A DNA stretch of 32,253 nucleotides from Acidimicrobiaceae bacterium. Its GTDB lineage: Bacteria; Actinomycetota; Acidimicrobiia; Acidimicrobiales; RAAP-2. Made by a program: the position numbers and the translations under genes. Under the pieces are notes generated by a model that did not search any database, was not told the origin of the DNA, and saw only the letters and a program-made list of their open reading frames with translations. The first letter of the stretch is position 1; every line of letters begins with the position of its first letter. Positions 3,824-31,870 of this stretch are shown piece after piece. The stretch is taken from NCBI GenBank assembly GCA_003155915.1, contig PMFA01000013.1, positions 1 through 32,253 on the forward strand, read 5' to 3'.

Positions 3824-5311
3824 ATGTCCGACATCTCCCTCGACGTCGCCTCGACGGATCGGCACGCGCCCGACTGGTTGATCCTCTGTATTGCCTGTAT
3901 CGCGCAGTTCATGGTCGTCTTGGACGTCTCGATCGTGAACGTCGCCCTGCCGCGCATGGGTCACGATCTGCACTTCACGCAGAGCAGTGCCCAATGGGTG
4001 GTGAACGCCTACGTACTAACGTTCGCGGGGTTCTTGCTCTTGGGCGGACGGGCCTGTGACTTCTTCGGACGACGCAAGGTCTACATCACCGGCATCATCC
4101 TCTTCACGCTCGCGAGCATCGGCGCCGGCGTCGCACAAACCGGCACGCAGATGATCACGATCCGCGCGATCCAGGGAATCGGTGGCGCCATCCTCTCGCC
4201 CGCCACGCTCACCATCATCGTCACGACCTTTCACGGACCACGCCTGCCCAAGGCCATCGGCGCCTGGAGCGCAGTCGCCGGGGCGGGCGGCGCCGTCGGT
4301 GGTCTCTTGGGCGGAATCTTGACCGGATGGGCGTCGTGGCGCTGGGTCTTCTTCATCAACGTGCCCTTCGGTATCGTCGCGGGCACCGTCGCCGTGATGT
4401 ACCTGCGTGAGATGCGCAACCGCGACGCCACCACCAAGCTCGACGTCACCGGATCAGTGCTCGTCACGGGGGGTCTCGCGGCGGCGATCTACGCGGTGGT
4501 GAATACGACGACGCACAGCTGGACGTCCTCCACGACGCTCGAATGGCTCTTCTTGGGATTGGCTCTGCTGGCGGCGTTCATATTCTGGGAAGCGAAAGTG
4601 GCGTCGCATCCGCTCGTGCCGTTCAAGATTTTCAGATCCCGACCGCTCACGACGGCGAATCTCATGATGTTCCTCATTGGCGGCACGTTCTTCGCCATGT
4701 GGTACTTCTTGACCTACTACTTCCAGGGTGTCCTCGGTTACGGACCCGTGAAGGCCGGCTTCGCCTTCTTTCCGATGGCCCTCGCCATCATCGTGGGCGC
4801 CCAGATCTCGTCGCGACTCCTTTCGAGGACGGGAGTACGACCGCTGCTACAAATCGGCGCCGTGCTCGGAGCCCTCGGTTTCCTTTGGATCTCGCTCATC
4901 AAGCCCGCCGACTCCTACGCGGGACACATTCTGGTGCCGTCATTCATCTGCGCCTTCGCGATGGGCCTGCTCTTTGCGCCGCTCGCGACGGCCGCGACTT
5001 CGGGCGTTGATCGATCCGACGCCGGTCTCGCCTCGGGCATTCTCAATACCGCGCGACAGGTCGGCGGTTCGCTCGCGCTCGCGATCCTCGCCACGGTCGC
5101 GACTGACGTGAAGAACCACGCAATCGCCACTACCTCTCAAGCGGCGGCCTACACCTCGGGCTACGACCGCGTCTTCCAGATTTCCGCCCTCGTCACCGTC
5201 GTCGCGTTCTTCGTGTCCTTTGCACTACCTCGAAACACCGGTCGCGCGCTCGCTGCCCCGAGCGCGACGTCGCCCGAAGTCGCATCCCCGTTACCTCTAG
5301 AACCCGCTTAG
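3824..5311 (+). CDS. MFS multidrug exporter, DHA2 (EmrB/QacA-type) family
   Basis: Inner-membrane proton-coupled exporter of 495 residues, the length expected for a 14-helix DHA2 transporter. The protein starts its first helix after about 20 residues (WLILCIACIAQFMVVLDVSIVNVALP). The D-V-S-I-V-N-V-A-L-P stretch is motif D1 of the DHA2 family, and GGRACDFFGRRKVY between helices 2 and 3 is motif A. The motif C region in helix 5 (GAWSAVAGAGGAVGGLLGG) is also clear. Substrate cannot be told from sequence; drugs, dyes or a secreted metabolite are all possible. Start ATG follows a TACAAT box by six bases. No TetR or MarR repressor is adjacent. It runs convergently toward psuK with a 120-bp gap in which I see no strong terminator. 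Confidence 0.9.
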   Translation: MSDISLDVASTDRHAPDWLILCIACIAQFMVVLDVSIVNVALPRMGHDLHFTQSSAQWVVNAYVLTFAGFLLLGGRACDFFGRRKVYITGIILFTLASIGAGVAQTGTQMITIRAIQGIGGAILSPATLTIIVTTFHGPRLPKAIGAWSAVAGAGGAVGGLLGGILTGWASWRWVFFINVPFGIVAGTVAVMYLREMRNRDATTKLDVTGSVLVTGGLAAAIYAVVNTTTHSWTSSTTLEWLFLGLALLAAFIFWEAKVASHPLVPFKIFRSRPLTTANLMMFLIGGTFFAMWYFLTYYFQGVLGYGPVKAGFAFFPMALAIIVGAQISSRLLSRTGVRPLLQIGAVLGALGFLWISLIKPADSYAGHILVPSFICAFAMGLLFAPLATAATSGVDRSDAGLASGILNTARQVGGSLALAILATVATDVKNHAIATTSQAAAYTSGYDRVFQISALVTVVAFFVSFALPRNTGRALAAPSATSPEVASPLPLEPA

Positions 5312-28350: not shown

Positions 28351-29406
28351 TCAGTCGAGTGAGATAGGCGTGTCGATGTCCATTTCGACACCGGTACCAA
28401 CGACGTCGGGCAATAGGGCGTTGGCCATGTGCTCGCGCACGCGTCCATCGATCTCAGCCATCGTCTGCGGGTTCTCGCGAAGGAAGGCCTTCACGTTCTC
28501 GCGACCCTGGCCCATCTGCTCACCCTCGTAGGTGAACCAGGCGCCGGCCTTCTTCACGAAGCCCAACTCGACGGCGACGTCGAGGACCGAACCTTCGCGA
28601 CTGATGCCCTGGCCGTACATGATGTCGAACTCAGCCTGCTTGAAGGGCGCGGCGCACTTGTTCTTCACGACCTTCACGCGCGTGCGGTTACCCACCACTT
28701 CGGTGCCATCCTTGATCGATTCGATGCGACGAATGTCGAGACGGATTGACGCGTAAAACTTGAGGGCCCTCCCACCGGGGGTTATCTCAGGTGATCCGTA
28801 GAGGACGCCGATCTTTTCGCGCAACTGGTTGATGAAGACCGCGACGGTGTTGGACTTGGAGAGTCCTCCGGTGAGTTTGCGAAGTGCCTGACTCATGAGA
28901 CGGGCCTGCAGTCCGACGTGCGAGTCGCCCATGTCCCCTTCGATCTCGGCGCGCGGCGTCAGCGCCGCCACTGAGTCGATGATGATGACGTCAAGTGCAC
29001 CCGAGCGGATCAGCATGTCGGTGATCTCGAGGGCCTGCTCGCCGGTGTCGGGCTGGGAGATGAGGAGGTCATCGACGTTGACGCCGATGGCGCGCGCATA
29101 GACGGGGTCCATCGCGTGCTCGGCGTCGATGTAGGCACAGACGCCACCGTTTCGCTGGGCTTCGGCGACGACGTGCATCGCCAATGTCGACTTACCCGAG
29201 GACTCGGGGCCGTAGAGCTCGACGATGCGACCGCGGGGCAGCCCACCGATGCCGAGCGCCATGTCGAGCGCGAGGGCGCCGGTCGGAATCGACTCGATGT
29301 TCATGTGCAGGTTCTCGCCCATGCGCATGATCGAGCCCTTGCCGAACTGCTTCTCGATCTGGCCGAGTGCGGCGTCGAGGGCCTTCTCACGGTCGTCGGT
29401 TGCCAT
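28351..29406 (-). CDS. recA: Recombinase RecA
   Basis: DNA-dependent ATPase for strand exchange and co-protease for LexA cleavage. 351 residues from the ATG at 29406. Walker [10 protein letters not shown] at 66-74, the catalytic-Glu region [12 protein letters not shown], Walker [16 protein letters not shown]-binding loop L1 ([12 protein letters not shown]) and L2 with [21 protein letters not shown] are all intact. No intein. The start is fixed by an AAGGAG Shine-Dalgarno six bases before the ATG; the frame is open 141 bases further up but crosses the promoter. With an untranslated leader of about 70 nt and a LexA box it differs from the leaderless genes around it. recX is not adjacent downstream; an acetyltransferase follows instead. 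Confidence 0.98.
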
Positions 29407-29489
29407 TGTTGTCTCCTTGTTTTTCGTCATCGGAGGAACGCTATGAGCCTCTTGTGACATCGGTCGGTCTCCACCCGTAATCACGGTAC

Positions 29490-29507
29490 TACGAACAAGT
29501 GTTCGTA
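29490..29507. promoter_or_regulatory. LexA (SOS) box of recA
   Basis: TACGAACA-AG-TGTTCGTA is a perfect palindrome apart from its two central bases and contains the actinobacterial LexA core CGAAC-N4-GTTCG. A minus-strand TACCGT (29488 down to 29483) directly beside it could be the recA -10, so LexA would block RNA polymerase. Confidence 0.9.
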
Positions 29508-29509
29508 AA

Positions 29510-29517
29510 ATGGATAT
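29510..29517 (+). repeat. Left target-site duplication of the transposon
   Basis: ATGGATAT, identical and in the same orientation at 31863-31870 on the far side of the element. Eight bases is the duplication length known for IS1595-family insertions. Confidence 0.8.
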
Positions 29518-29543
29518 AGCGTTGTGTGCGCAAAAAAAACACG
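29518..29543 (+). repeat. Left terminal inverted repeat
   Basis: Starts AGCGTTGTGTG, then CGC, an A8 run and CACG. It matches the reverse complement of 31838-31862 with a different first base, one further substitution (C/T) and one extra A in the run. Confidence 0.8.
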
Positions 29544-29568
29544 CCATACCCCGAAAATCTACCCCCGT

Positions 29569-29574
29569 TAGGCT
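29569..29574 (+). promoter_or_regulatory. -10 element of the 46-codon passenger gene
   Basis: TAGGCT, seven bases before the ATG at 29582, again in the leaderless layout. Confidence 0.4.
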
Positions 29575-29581
29575 GGTATTT

Positions 29582-29722
29582 ATGGAAAAGAAACGCTACG
29601 ACCCCGACGAATTGGTCGGCCTCGAAATGGAACCCGAAGAGGCTTTGGAGGCAATTCTGGACGGCGCTGGGACTGCCGACGAGGACTGGGAAATGGACGA
29701 AGGCTCAGGGTCCGAGGACTAG
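29582..29722 (+). CDS. Small acidic passenger protein, unknown function
   Basis: 46 residues starting [18 protein letters not shown], very acidic after the first five residues (Asp/Glu make up over a third), ending in GSGSED. No family recognised. It could be a small DNA-mimic, antitoxin-like or chaperone-like partner, but nothing shows this directly. The ATG at 29582 is favoured because a TAGGCT box lies seven bases before it; an in-frame ATG at 29510 is within the target duplication and would translate the terminal repeat. The stop codon TAG is the first half of the -10 box of the next gene. Confidence 0.6.
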
Positions 29723-29725
29723 TTT
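29720..29725 (+). promoter_or_regulatory. -10 element of the membrane passenger gene, overlapping a stop codon
   Basis: TAGTTT starts with the TAG stop of the 46-codon gene and ends six bases before the ATG at 29732. No Shine-Dalgarno is seen there, so a leaderless start explains the gene best. Confidence 0.45.
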
Positions 29726-29731
29726 CGGGCG

Positions 29732-30424
29732 ATGGCAAGAAAATCGTCTTTGGACGGAAAGTCATTCGGACTTACAGGGGGAATCTCCTTTGCGGCAGGG
29801 AGTATCTTGCTCGCCGTGATGCTTCCAACAGGTATTTCCACGCCTGTGGAATTGGCCCTATTTTCGTTTGCCTGCCTGCTAGCAGTATGTGGTTTGGCGT
29901 CTTCGCTGTGGGGGCTGCATCTCCACCTACTTGATCGACGCATCGCACAATTTCACAAAGATCATCGCGGGTTTCTTGCGGATTCGCTGGGGGCATCTCC
30001 TCATACAGAAAACGTTCGTGGAACCGCAGAGAGCATTGTCAACGAATTACGGACCCAGGGCGTCAACGTCACGATGGCGTATGACTGGATTGTTAATGCG
30101 TTGGCCTACGCATTCCAGACGGAGACGTTCGTTAATCCAGACGATGACTGGGGATGGATGTCTGAGGCGAGATTTAGAGCTATGGCGCAGTGGGTTGTTG
30201 ATGTACAGGCCACGGTGCGCAAAGTAATGGGCAAAAAAGAAGCCGACAATTTAGACATGGATGTCAACCGGATTCGTGAAATCGAGAAAGGTGCCGATCC
30301 AAAGGGTGACATCCATGAAATGGTCAACACGCGAGGAAAGGCGCAGGATGCTTTGCGCTGGCTAGAGAACTGTGATGACGAGCGACGTTGGCCGAAGAAT
30401 GGTCCGTATGCCTCTAAGCAATGA
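29732..30424 (+). CDS. Two-helix membrane passenger protein, unknown function
   Basis: 230 residues. Two hydrophobic helices (about 14-32 and 40-62) form an N-terminal membrane anchor. A cytoplasmic-looking, Asp/Glu/Lys-rich helical part follows (65-230), with a tryptophan-rich stretch DDDWGWMSEARFRAMAQWVVD near 138-158. No catalytic motif or known family recognised. It is codirectional with the small acidic gene and convergent with the transposase, overlapping its end by 11 bp. This shows that it belongs to the transposon and is not a host gene cut by it. Anti-phage, entry-exclusion or stress roles are possible but unsupported. Confidence 0.7.
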   Translation: MARKSSLDGKSFGLTGGISFAAGSILLAVMLPTGISTPVELALFSFACLLAVCGLASSLWGLHLHLLDRRIAQFHKDHRGFLADSLGASPHTENVRGTAESIVNELRTQGVNVTMAYDWIVNALAYAFQTETFVNPDDDWGWMSEARFRAMAQWVVDVQATVRKVMGKKEADNLDMDVNRIREIEKGADPKGDIHEMVNTRGKAQDALRWLENCDDERRWPKNGPYASKQ

Positions 30425-31373
30425 CATGCGCGTAGGGCAACTTTCCTGCGAGTCTCGTACCGAGATCGGCCATGCGCTCGGAGTCAGTCAATTCACAAGT
30501 GCTGTATCGATAGTCGAACTCATTCAAGTACCGGTGCAAGTGCTTGGGGTCAACGTGAATGTGCGTGCCCTTAAGTCCGCGCTTGAGTTGAGCGAAGTAG
30601 TTCTCGCAGAGGTTCGTACCGTTCGTCTTGTCAGTGGCGTAAATACCGGCCTTGTGGTCCACAATGTAGTGACCGGCCATAGCGCGACCGACCGAGAGGT
30701 AGCCACGAAACGAGTCCGTGTGAAGCGTCGTGGTGGCGGTGTCCACGTTCATTCGGATGGCATCTCCCAACGCTTTCGAGTCGACGGACTCCAAAACCTG
30801 CGAACGGACAGTGTGAGTGTTCACGTCAATGACGGAGACAACGGGCGTCTTTTTCGAACCGCGACCAATTCCAACTTCACGGGTATCGTTGGCGTGGCGA
30901 AACTCAGGATTACCGCCGATGTAAACCTCGTCAACAACAACGTCACCGGAAAACAACACGTAGTCATCGTGGCTCATCGCCTCACGGATACGGTGCAACA
31001 TATGCCACGCAGTACGAGGGCAGAGTCCGTACTTGCGCTCAATCTCACGCGCAGCGACACCATTCTTCGAAGCGCACATTTCGAAGATCACCATGACCCA
31101 CGTACGAACAGAAATCTTGGTCGCGTGCATGATGGTGCCAGTCAAAACGCTGAACTGCTTGCGACAAGGTGTGCAACGCCACACACGGCGCGCGGACTGA
31201 GAACCGCCAGCCGTGGTGCGAGAAACGCCATTGGTCGGCGTGACGTAGTGAACGTCAGTGGACAGACACTTAGGGCACTTGGTCTCACCGTGCCAGCGCA
31301 TGTTTTCGAGATACAAGTAGGCGTCAGCCTCGCTAATAATCTCTCGGCTCAGGCTGGCAATCGTTGTCCTCAT
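30414..31373 (-). CDS. IS1595-family transposase
   Basis: 319 residues, full length for the family. An N-terminal zinc ribbon (Cys33, Cys36, Cys67, Cys70: CPKC ... CTPC) is followed by a helix-turn-helix-like segment (GVAAREIERKYGLCPRTAWHML). The ISXO2-type DDE domain comes next: Asp148 in VVVDEVYIGG, Asp220 in LHTDSFRGY, and Glu257 with Lys264 in CENYFAQLKRGLKGT. The typical ending HLHRYLNEFDYRY closes it. No frameshift or stop, so it looks active. No strong Shine-Dalgarno precedes the ATG. A LexA-type box lies about 57 bp upstream of the start, which suggests SOS control. Confidence 0.93.
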   Translation of the reverse strand: MRTTIASLSREIISEADAYLYLENMRWHGETKCPKCLSTDVHYVTPTNGVSRTTAGGSQSARRVWRCTPCRKQFSVLTGTIMHATKISVRTWVMVIFEMCASKNGVAAREIERKYGLCPRTAWHMLHRIREAMSHDDYVLFSGDVVVDEVYIGGNPEFRHANDTREVGIGRGSKKTPVVSVIDVNTHTVRSQVLESVDSKALGDAIRMNVDTATTTLHTDSFRGYLSVGRAMAGHYIVDHKAGIYATDKTNGTNLCENYFAQLKRGLKGTHIHVDPKHLHRYLNEFDYRYSTCELTDSERMADLGTRLAGKLPYAHVIA

Positions 31374-31395
31374 TCTTCAATTCTTCCAAGTAGGT

Positions 31396-31410
31396 GTGAC
31401 ATAACGTCAC
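31396..31410. repeat. Inverted repeat upstream of the transposase
   Basis: GTGAC-ATAAC-GTCAC, perfect five-base arms, 23 bases before the transposase ATG. It could bind a regulator or the transposase itself; nothing more can be said. Confidence 0.35.
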
Positions 31411-31428
31411 CCCTGATGGAAGGTGTTA

Positions 31429-31444
31429 TCGAACGCCTGTTCGT
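31429..31444. promoter_or_regulatory. LexA-type (SOS) box inside the transposon
   Basis: TCGAAC-GCCT-GTTCGT holds a perfect CGAAC-N4-GTTCG core (31430-31443) and differs from the mycobacterial consensus only in the last outer base. It is upstream of the transposase gene and is the only such core I found in the window apart from the recA box. Confidence 0.65.
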
Positions 31445-31458
31445 GTGTTTTTGCAAAG
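31442..31458 (+). repeat. Internal copy resembling the terminal repeat
   Basis: CGTGTGTTTTTGCAAAG resembles the inner part of the right terminal repeat (CGTGTTTTTTTGCACAC) at 14 of 17 positions and has the same orientation. It overlaps the LexA box by two bases and forms one arm of a seven-base inverted repeat, TGCAAAG (31452-31458) with CTTTGCA (31471-31477). Confidence 0.35.
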
Positions 31459-31569
31459 TTGTTTTTTATGCTTTGCAGAGTGTTGGGAATGATATATACA
31501 CTGAAGTTGGTTTTAAAACCGGCGTCGGCGCAAGTGAGGTGATTGCTTACGTGTGCCGTATGCAAGTGG

Positions 31570-31595
31570 ATGGGCGCTGGTTCAGCAGCGCCCAT
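31570..31595 (-). terminator. Strong hairpin just downstream of the tRNA-like gene
   Basis: ATGGGCGCTG and CAGCGCCCAT form a perfect ten-base GC-rich stem with a six-base loop (GTTCAG). It begins 13 bases after the tRNA 3' end on the minus strand. There is no T-run after it, so it could act in 3' processing or transcript stability rather than as a classical terminator. Confidence 0.45.
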
Positions 31596-31608
31596 TTGCG
31601 CTGTATTG

Positions 31609-31700
31609 CGGTAGGTAAGGGATTCGGACCCTTGAGAGGATTGATTAGATCCTCTGCGTGTGTTTCAGACACGTGCTTTAAACCACTCAGCCAACCCACC
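31609..31700 (-). tRNA. Class II serine-type tRNA with anticodon GAA (unusual)
   Basis: A 92-nt cloverleaf on the minus strand. Acceptor GGTGGGT pairs with ACCTACC (one G-T), then G73 and no encoded CCA. U8, D-stem GCT/AGC and a D-loop with A14, GG and A21 follow. The anticodon stem CGTGT/ACACG is perfect with a seven-base loop CTGAAAC, so the anticodon is GAA after U33. The variable arm is a perfect seven-base stem AGAGGAT/ATCCTCT. The T-stem AAGGG/CCCTT is perfect, but the T-loop is TCCGAAT with C at position 55. The long variable arm and G73 are serine identity features, while GAA reads phenylalanine codons. Shifting the loop to read TGA (serine) would put C at 33 and leave only three stem pairs. 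It may be a functional mis-decoding tRNA, a degenerate tRNA, or a tRNA mimic. Confidence 0.75.
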
Positions 31701-31718
31701 GTCGGTATGCCTTTGGAA

Positions 31719-31724
31719 AACTTA
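31719..31724 (-). promoter_or_regulatory. Candidate -10 of the tRNA-like gene
   Basis: Minus-strand TAAGTT, with a weak TTTGAG 17 bp upstream, would start transcription about 12 nt before the tRNA. The box is partly inside a seven-base inverted repeat, GTCGGTA (31701-31707) with TACCGAC (31723-31729), which touches the tRNA 5' end. Confidence 0.4.
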
Positions 31725-31805
31725 CCGACACCATTATCCCCCTCAAAGTGTTACAACCAGCGTCTTTTGACGGGTGCAACGAGGACAACAACTTGGGGAT
31801 TTACC

Positions 31806-31835
31806 TGTGGACAAAAAACTCGAATCTGTGGAAAA
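31806..31835 (-). other. DnaA-box-like nonamers near the right transposon end
   Basis: Minus-strand TTGTCCACA (31814 down to 31806) is the actinobacterial DnaA-box consensus, and TTTTCCACA (31835 down to 31827) is a one-mismatch variant. They lie a few bases inside the right terminal repeat. Between the tRNA and here (31701-31837) I see no coding sequence. Confidence 0.4.
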
Positions 31836-31837
31836 CC

Positions 31838-31862
31838 CGTGTTTTTTTGCACACACAACGCC
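31838..31862 (-). repeat. Right terminal inverted repeat
   Basis: Read inward on the minus strand it starts GGCGTTGTGTG, then TGC, an A7 run and CACG, pairing with the left repeat at 29518-29543. Confidence 0.8.
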
Positions 31863-31870
31863 ATGGATAT
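31863..31870 (+). repeat. Right target-site duplication of the transposon
   Basis: ATGGATAT, identical to 29510-29517. The 65 bases from here to the stop of the hydrolase gene hold nothing recognisable. Confidence 0.8.

Follow-up and report, generated by a model that had tools for sequence, protein, structure and literature searches.

A serine-type tRNA with a phenylalanine anticodon, carried by a transposon beside recA, is a candidate missense tRNA

The window analysed here is a stretch of 32,253 nucleotides that makes up one whole contig of a draft genome (G000; 2.52 Mb in 29 contigs). Within it, an IS1595-type transposon of 2345 bp (29518..31862) lies beside recA (28351..29406, minus strand). 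The element ends in terminal inverted repeats, one on the recA side (29518..29540, plus strand) and one on the tRNA side (31840..31862, minus strand), which agree at 19 of 22 positions, and it is flanked by a target site duplication, ATGGATAT, whose recA-side copy (29510..29517) and far-side copy (31863..31870) match at 8/8 positions. When joined, the flanks align continuously over 265-270 bp, at 86-89% identity, to three sister genomes (G034, G109 and G137) that have no insertion at this site; in G000 the element is present in single copy. Its 319-amino acid IS1595/ISXO2-like transposase (30414..31373, minus strand) has Pfam matches to DDE_Tnp_IS1595 (2.1e-27) and Zn_ribbon_IS1595 (2.5e-10), the family pair PF12762 and PF12760. 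These domains, the inverted repeats and the 8-bp duplication, which is the norm in the IS1595 family, are shared with that family and place the element in it. Two passenger open reading frames (ORFs) lie on the plus strand: one of 230 amino acids (29732..30424), with no Pfam family above the cut-off, and one for a 46-amino acid acidic peptide (29582..29722), with no Pfam match. The recA ORF as listed (28351-29547) begins inside the transposon; its true start is likely the ATG at 29406, which was taken as the start here.

The tRNA gene lies at 31609..31700 on the minus strand. It is the sole ARAGORN tRNA in the window (31608-31700, minus strand, anticodon GAA, named Phe(GAA)) and the only Rfam match there above the gathering score. 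The match to RF00005 (31609-31700, minus strand) reaches 52.3 bits, where the cut-off is 29, has an E value of 1.2e-08 and spans positions 1-71 of the 71 in the model; with this score and a complete cloverleaf, the gene belongs to the family. The acceptor stem is paired at 7/7 positions, with one G-U pair and G1:C72, and the anticodon and T stems are each paired at 5/5. The anticodon, GAA by both ARAGORN and direct inspection of the sequence, is at 31664..31666 (minus strand). The variable arm (31635..31655, minus strand) is a perfect stem of seven Watson-Crick pairs with a 7-nt loop, set in a variable region of 23 nt, and N73 is G. A cloverleaf with the variable arm is also the minimum free energy fold, equalled by 5 of 200 shuffles. 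The original prediction had described a complete class II cloverleaf with a perfect seven-base variable-arm stem, G73, a five-pair anticodon stem, a GAA anticodon and a C replacing T55, carried by a transposon. All of this holds, with the strand, which the prediction left out, now given as minus; nor does the covariance model, at 52.3 bits, speak for a pseudogene. C55 (31627, minus strand) removes the usual pseudouridine site. C38 in the anticodon loop (31662, minus strand), where the host tRNA-Phe and tRNA-Ser loops have A, breaks the A36-A37-A38 motif needed by MiaA. Each change would weaken decoding; judged from the sequence, they could equally be tuning or early decay, which single copies cannot tell apart. 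The CCA tail is absent from the gene, as it is from many of the host's own tRNA genes.

Seryl-tRNA synthetase (SerRS) reads the variable arm and G73 and ignores the anticodon. The window tRNA and all eight host tRNA-Ser have G73 and a single unpaired base on either side of the variable-arm stem; this geometry differs in 8/8 host tRNA-Leu and in both tRNA-Tyr shown, a comparison that covers two of the three tRNA-Tyr and leaves out Leu(TAA), which was read as short. Covariance models were built from the tRNAs of G000 and G106 for Ser (8 sequences), Leu (8) and Tyr (3). With filters off, they scored the window tRNA at 57.7 (Ser), 52.0 (Tyr) and 31.8 (Leu) bits. As a control, with default filters, the same models gave nine of nine other class II tRNAs the isotype of their anticodon; three of these came from G123, in the genus of the training set, four from G091, and one each from G066 and G077. 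The Ser-over-Tyr margin of the window tRNA is 5.7 bits, against 25-37 bits in the three Ser controls. In pairwise alignment, its best host match is Tyr (56/82), followed by Ser(GCT) (56/89). With such closest matches, the idea that it derives from one of the host's present tRNAs was rejected, as was a phage or plasmid origin, for which only partial, weak matches were found. Weak phage matches came from 73 records; among the 15 listed, 10 fall within genes annotated as tRNA-Ser and none within a gene annotated as any other tRNA. Thus, the serine scaffold of the original prediction stands, with the Ser model scoring best. By these comparisons the body is serine-type but diverged, because the Ser margin is narrower than in the controls and the closest host tRNA in pairwise alignment is Tyr. 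Since the anticodon is none of those of serine (GGA, UGA, CGA, GCU), we speak of a serine-type body, outside the Ser decoding set. It shares the GAA anticodon with tRNA-Phe and has neither the class I body nor the A73 of that type. G000 already encodes a Phe(GAA), with A73, as well as four tRNA-Ser (UGA, GCU, GGA, CGA), so that the window tRNA looks superfluous to the host as far as the gene complement indicates.

A protein search of genome contigs with the window transposase found two relatives, L051 (89% identical) and L052 (75%), both from permafrost metagenome-assembled genomes labelled Acidimicrobiaceae and of the same genus as the window genome. More widely, 14 of 99 genus genomes have a transposase match at 1e-30, of which five, the window genome included and G101 contributing a fragment, are at least 67% identical; at 1e-60, 11 of 397 genomes of the order give a match, with 41-57% identity in those that lie outside the genus. 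The L051 and L052 elements both lie upstream of recA and have 8-bp duplications. L051 occupies the same recA site as the window element and has no tRNA; its cargo slot (4368-4930) holds two adjacent small ORFs, of 74 and 120 amino acids as listed, which have no Pfam match at E 1. A toxin-antitoxin reading of this slot was rejected because neither ORF has such a match.

The L052 element carries a second tRNA (L052 4677-4750; Rfam 58.0 bits, also called by ARAGORN) in the same slot as the window tRNA, bounded by the far inverted repeat on one side and the transposase on the other. Its anticodon is GTC (Asp) and its acceptor has the alanine signature, G3:U70 with A73. Among the ARAGORN-called tRNAs of G000 and G106, the L052 tRNA itself aside, G3:U70 occurs in 5/5 tRNA-Ala and 0/77 others. 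The anticodon is not that of tRNA-Ala (NGC). Its host, G106, also encodes a regular tRNA-Asp, with G73. Alanyl-tRNA synthetase (AlaRS) recognises G3:U70 whatever the anticodon; by this rule, the L052 tRNA should be charged with alanine and should read Asp codons. Few synthetase systems are known to tolerate a foreign anticodon, and those for serine and alanine are among them. Two origins for the L052 tRNA were considered and rejected: a host tRNA, the closest matching at only 57/72 positions (Phe and Ala), and a phage, for which 432 records were found, those listed lying in Lys, Gly and Asn tRNAs with a best E value of 7e-8.

The leaders of the two cargo tRNAs are homologous (39/51 identical). 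A block of 19 nt is the same in both (31792..31810, minus strand, and L052 4577-4595), and a -10-like hexamer, GATAAT (31733..31738, minus strand), stands 32 nt before the window tRNA, a spacing repeated in L052; a promoter scan reported no tRNA promoter, GATAAT included. Two DnaA-box-like sequences, TTGTCCACAG (31805..31814, minus strand) and TTTTCCACAG (31826..31835, minus strand), fit the pattern TTDTCCACAG, which resembles the DnaA box. They are the window's only two and both lie upstream of the tRNA, where 0.07 were expected, for a pattern chosen after seeing the sequence. L052 has one such site (4573-4582), also upstream of its tRNA, and L051 has none. Downstream, both cargo tRNAs are followed by GC hairpins, that of the window lying 3' of the tRNA at 31570..31595 (minus strand) with no T run after it. 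Thus, on the alignment, one leader type precedes two unrelated tRNA bodies, both mismatched with their anticodons.

A search of 99 further genomes, 60 from the genus and 39 from the order, brought no second copy of the window tRNA, the sole match covering 30 bases of a tRNA-Ser(CGA), and a search for the L052 tRNA in the other 98 genus genomes gave nothing beyond 76-78% matches to tRNA-sized stretches. Exact pieces were absent from viral contigs; relatives of the transposase were likewise absent from viral contigs and, at E 1e-40, from plasmids. ARAGORN found one tRNA at 15 transposase loci of the genus (in L055, which is the same element as L052), one at 14 order-level loci (Gly(TCC) in L069, 1.4 kb off the transposase), none at eight loci found by inverted-repeat pattern, and none at 30 recA loci, among them L160, which ends short of the window tRNA. 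Mismatched tRNA cargoes across all loci examined therefore number two, in the window and in L052. Each is known from one genome, and there is no conservation signature.

A LexA (SOS) box, CGAACGCCTGTTCG, lies 56 bp before the transposase start (31430..31443). It fits CGAACNNNNGTTCG, which we take to be the LexA consensus of the group and which occurs 18 times in the 2.5-Mb genome; a box of this type also precedes recA, supporting the assignment, and the transposase is a candidate member of the LexA regulon. In the window, L051 and L052, an exact LexA-type box precedes the transposase start by 44-56 bp; in L058, L059 and L060, one lies 68 bp upstream of the part of the transposase that was matched; L072 has a box with one mismatch, and none precedes the transposase of L056. 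The scan covered 32 loci, 30 of them distinct and some cut by contig ends, and found no box at the window tRNA itself.

The element also sits beside an SOS box: that of recA (29492..29505) starts 12 bp beyond the element tip. Exactly this distance was found at six of eight element ends (the window, L051, L052, G051, G059 and L056), where the eight are those with both an inverted repeat and an acidic-peptide gene; box and tip span 29492-29518 in the window, 6803-6828 in L051, 6806-6831 in L052, 3233-3258 in L056, and 1523-1548 in L153 and L154. Five of the six are at recA, and that of L056 lies before another small gene; three of the six have a LexA box before their own transposase. The other two ends, L063 and L151 (G108), are not beside an SOS box. 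Left out of this count were L146, L147, L150 and L155, single pattern matches with two to three mismatches and no peptide gene, none of which has an SOS box within 60 bp. Both ends and the duplication were recognised only in the window, L051, L052 and L063. Among 30 recA loci of the genus, the inverted repeat is present at this place in three and absent in 27. The insertions at recA may not all be independent events, because the window and L051 elements have the same duplication. A tRNA cargo, a LexA box before the transposase and an SOS-box spacing fixed in 6/8 ends distinguish these elements from the IS1595 family as known. By this spacing, they are apparently IS1595-type transposons that target SOS boxes; a literature search for LexA sites as insertion targets listed none like them by title. 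All eight elements or remnants have, close to the corresponding end, a gene for a similar acidic peptide (the window, L051, L052, L056, L063, L151, L153 and L154). Its gene is retained even where no transposase was detected (G051, G059 and G108).

We tentatively read the window tRNA as a transposon-carried missense tRNA of dual identity, weakened in decoding, whose mild translational stress perhaps primes SOS and transposition; on the sequence evidence this is a serious candidate, held short of probable. From what is known of synthetases, host SerRS would charge the window tRNA with serine through its variable arm and G73, and host AlaRS would charge the L052 tRNA with alanine through G3:U70; as both enzymes ignore the anticodon, both tRNAs could mistranslate without any new enzyme. 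UUY codons would then be read as Ser, and GAY codons as Ala, at a low rate, which in the window tRNA C55 and C38 may keep bearable. Phenylalanyl-tRNA synthetase (PheRS) reads GAA and might also add Phe to the window tRNA. A missense tRNA of this kind could bring the cell nearer to its SOS threshold, so that LexA would come off sooner and the transposase be switched on; such a shift would help derepress the element's own LexA-boxed transposase, in an element usually inserted beside an SOS box. An editing-defective synthetase was reportedly linked to SOS mutagenesis by Bacher and Schimmel in 2007, to go by the title of their paper. Every step of this feed-forward scheme beyond the presence of the tRNA is one that we infer. 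If it is right, such elements may put small deliberate errors into host proteins. The original prediction had named mistranslation as a possible role; the mismatched tRNA in the same slot of L052 makes that role likelier, while charging and use are still argued from synthetase biology. Mistranslation is thus the best of several readings, and the L052 tRNA lends it real support. For the other roles suggested in the original prediction, a decoy, a primer or compensation for tRNA damage, nothing specific came up. A different use, in which the tRNA is needed for decoding the element's own transposase, was rejected: in an alignment of 12 transposases, inspected by eye, the window protein has no Phe where its relatives share Ser, and that of L052 no Asp where they share Ala.

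Work in other organisms bears on several of these steps. PMC9956149 describes Phe codons decoded with Ser by human tRNA-Ser(AAA), and PMC6827378 describes a yeast tRNA-Ser(GAA) that induces the heat-shock response and lengthens doubling time by 50%, built with a second mutation against potential lethality. In E. coli, several kinds of mistranslation raise Lon and speed LexA degradation on damage, according to PMC7082066, which also reports that basal LexA was at its normal level in a mistranslating mutant and that mutagenesis gave no sign of an increase. Since LexA in that mutant was degraded only after damage, mistranslation alone need not switch SOS on. We regard as distinctly unlikely the broader proposal that a class of transposons, mostly beside LexA boxes and usually that of recA, carries swappable "alarm tRNAs" in which an anticodon-blind body (Ser, Ala) is joined to a foreign anticodon, giving low, tuned mistranslation without a partner enzyme, lowering the SOS threshold and releasing the element's own LexA-controlled transposase. 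The second end without an SOS box and the normal basal LexA in E. coli led us to lower its weight slightly.

The strongest competitor, which we rate as somewhat unlikely, is that these are captured, functionless tRNAs in early decay: the slot would have caught foreign tRNAs by chance, and their unselected anticodons would have drifted. C55 and C38 do depart from the host pattern, both cargo tRNAs are known as single copies, and both are distant from any host tRNA (56/82 for Tyr and 56/89 for Ser(GCT) in one case, 57/72 for Phe and Ala in the other). However, the stems of both are intact while both anticodons disagree with the body, and random change should strike stems as readily as anticodons; both also keep the leader with equal spacing. 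We consider it very unlikely that the window tRNA instead works as a tRNA-Phe despite its class II body, as an extra Phe decoder charged by PheRS that perhaps escapes a nuclease directed at ordinary tRNA-Phe. Although GAA is a main PheRS determinant, and some phages are known to carry tRNAs that make good nuclease damage, G73 in place of A73 and the 23-nt variable region favour SerRS, and the L052 tRNA, with its Asp anticodon, A73 and G3:U70, would be left unexplained. Equally improbable, in our judgement, is a slot whose modules stabilise the element by being harmful or addictive, comprising the missense tRNAs of the window and L052 and the two small ORFs of L051. The adjacency of those ORFs at the same recA site would suit such a slot, but their lack of a Pfam match at E 1 makes a toxin-antitoxin pair a guess, and nothing that could serve as antidote to a missense tRNA is apparent. 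Least probable is a purely structural role of the tRNA, as DNA or RNA, in which it would be a transcription roadblock, a processing signal or an insulator separating the element end from the LexA-boxed transposase, between which it does lie with DnaA-box-like sites upstream and GC hairpins downstream of both tRNAs, for such a role should need no intact anticodon arm, T arm or synthetase signature, nor an identity mismatched twice.

Under the missense reading, the closest parallels are other tRNAs that misread codons or carry an anticodon foreign to the body. The E. coli mutA and mutC alleles are point mutants of chromosomal glycine tRNAs that misread Asp codons, and their translational stress is linked to RecA-dependent mutagenesis. 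The L052 tRNA resembles them in the codons that it would misread and differs in its alanine-type body and its place on a transposon. According to PMC11415595, tRNA-ProX of Streptomyces and Kitasatospora is likewise actinobacterial, combines the body and anticodon of different amino acids, has odd bases at conserved positions and mistranslates in E. coli; it differs in its Pro body, its A34 and its co-encoded ProRSx, although E. coli ProRS can charge it as well. Here, by contrast, the bodies are of Ser and Ala type, position 34 is G and the vehicle is a transposon. The window tRNA has G1:C72 where a Pro body has C1:G72 (as in host tRNA-Pro), and none of the three ORFs of the element that were tested against Pfam (the transposase and those of 230 and 46 amino acids) matches a synthetase. 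Human tRNA-Ser(AAA) (PMC9956149) and yeast tRNA-Ser(GAA) (PMC6827378) are also serine tRNAs that read Phe codons, and the yeast tRNA has the same anticodon as the window tRNA and a weakening second mutation; the former is a human point variant and the latter a laboratory construct, and neither is cargo of a bacterial mobile element. What appears new among dual-identity tRNAs is the combination of Ser or Ala bodies, no synthetase in the element's tested ORFs, and mobility. No transposon carrying a mistranslating tRNA was found in the literature searched, chiefly non-subscription papers. If the reading is true, missense tRNAs charged by host synthetases unaided and carried on mobile elements would be a simple, transferable form of local code ambiguity, and mistranslation would be tied to DNA-damage signalling and transposition.

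The tRNA tallies used throughout are ARAGORN calls, 45 in G000 and 44 in G106 after five gapped G106 tRNAs were dropped; Rfam gave 48 tRNA matches in each genome, and those without an ARAGORN call were left unclassified. G106 also has extra tRNAs of unusual sequence, Lys(UUU), Tyr(GUA) and Val(UAC) (L131, L135 and L140), possibly from a prophage or from contamination.
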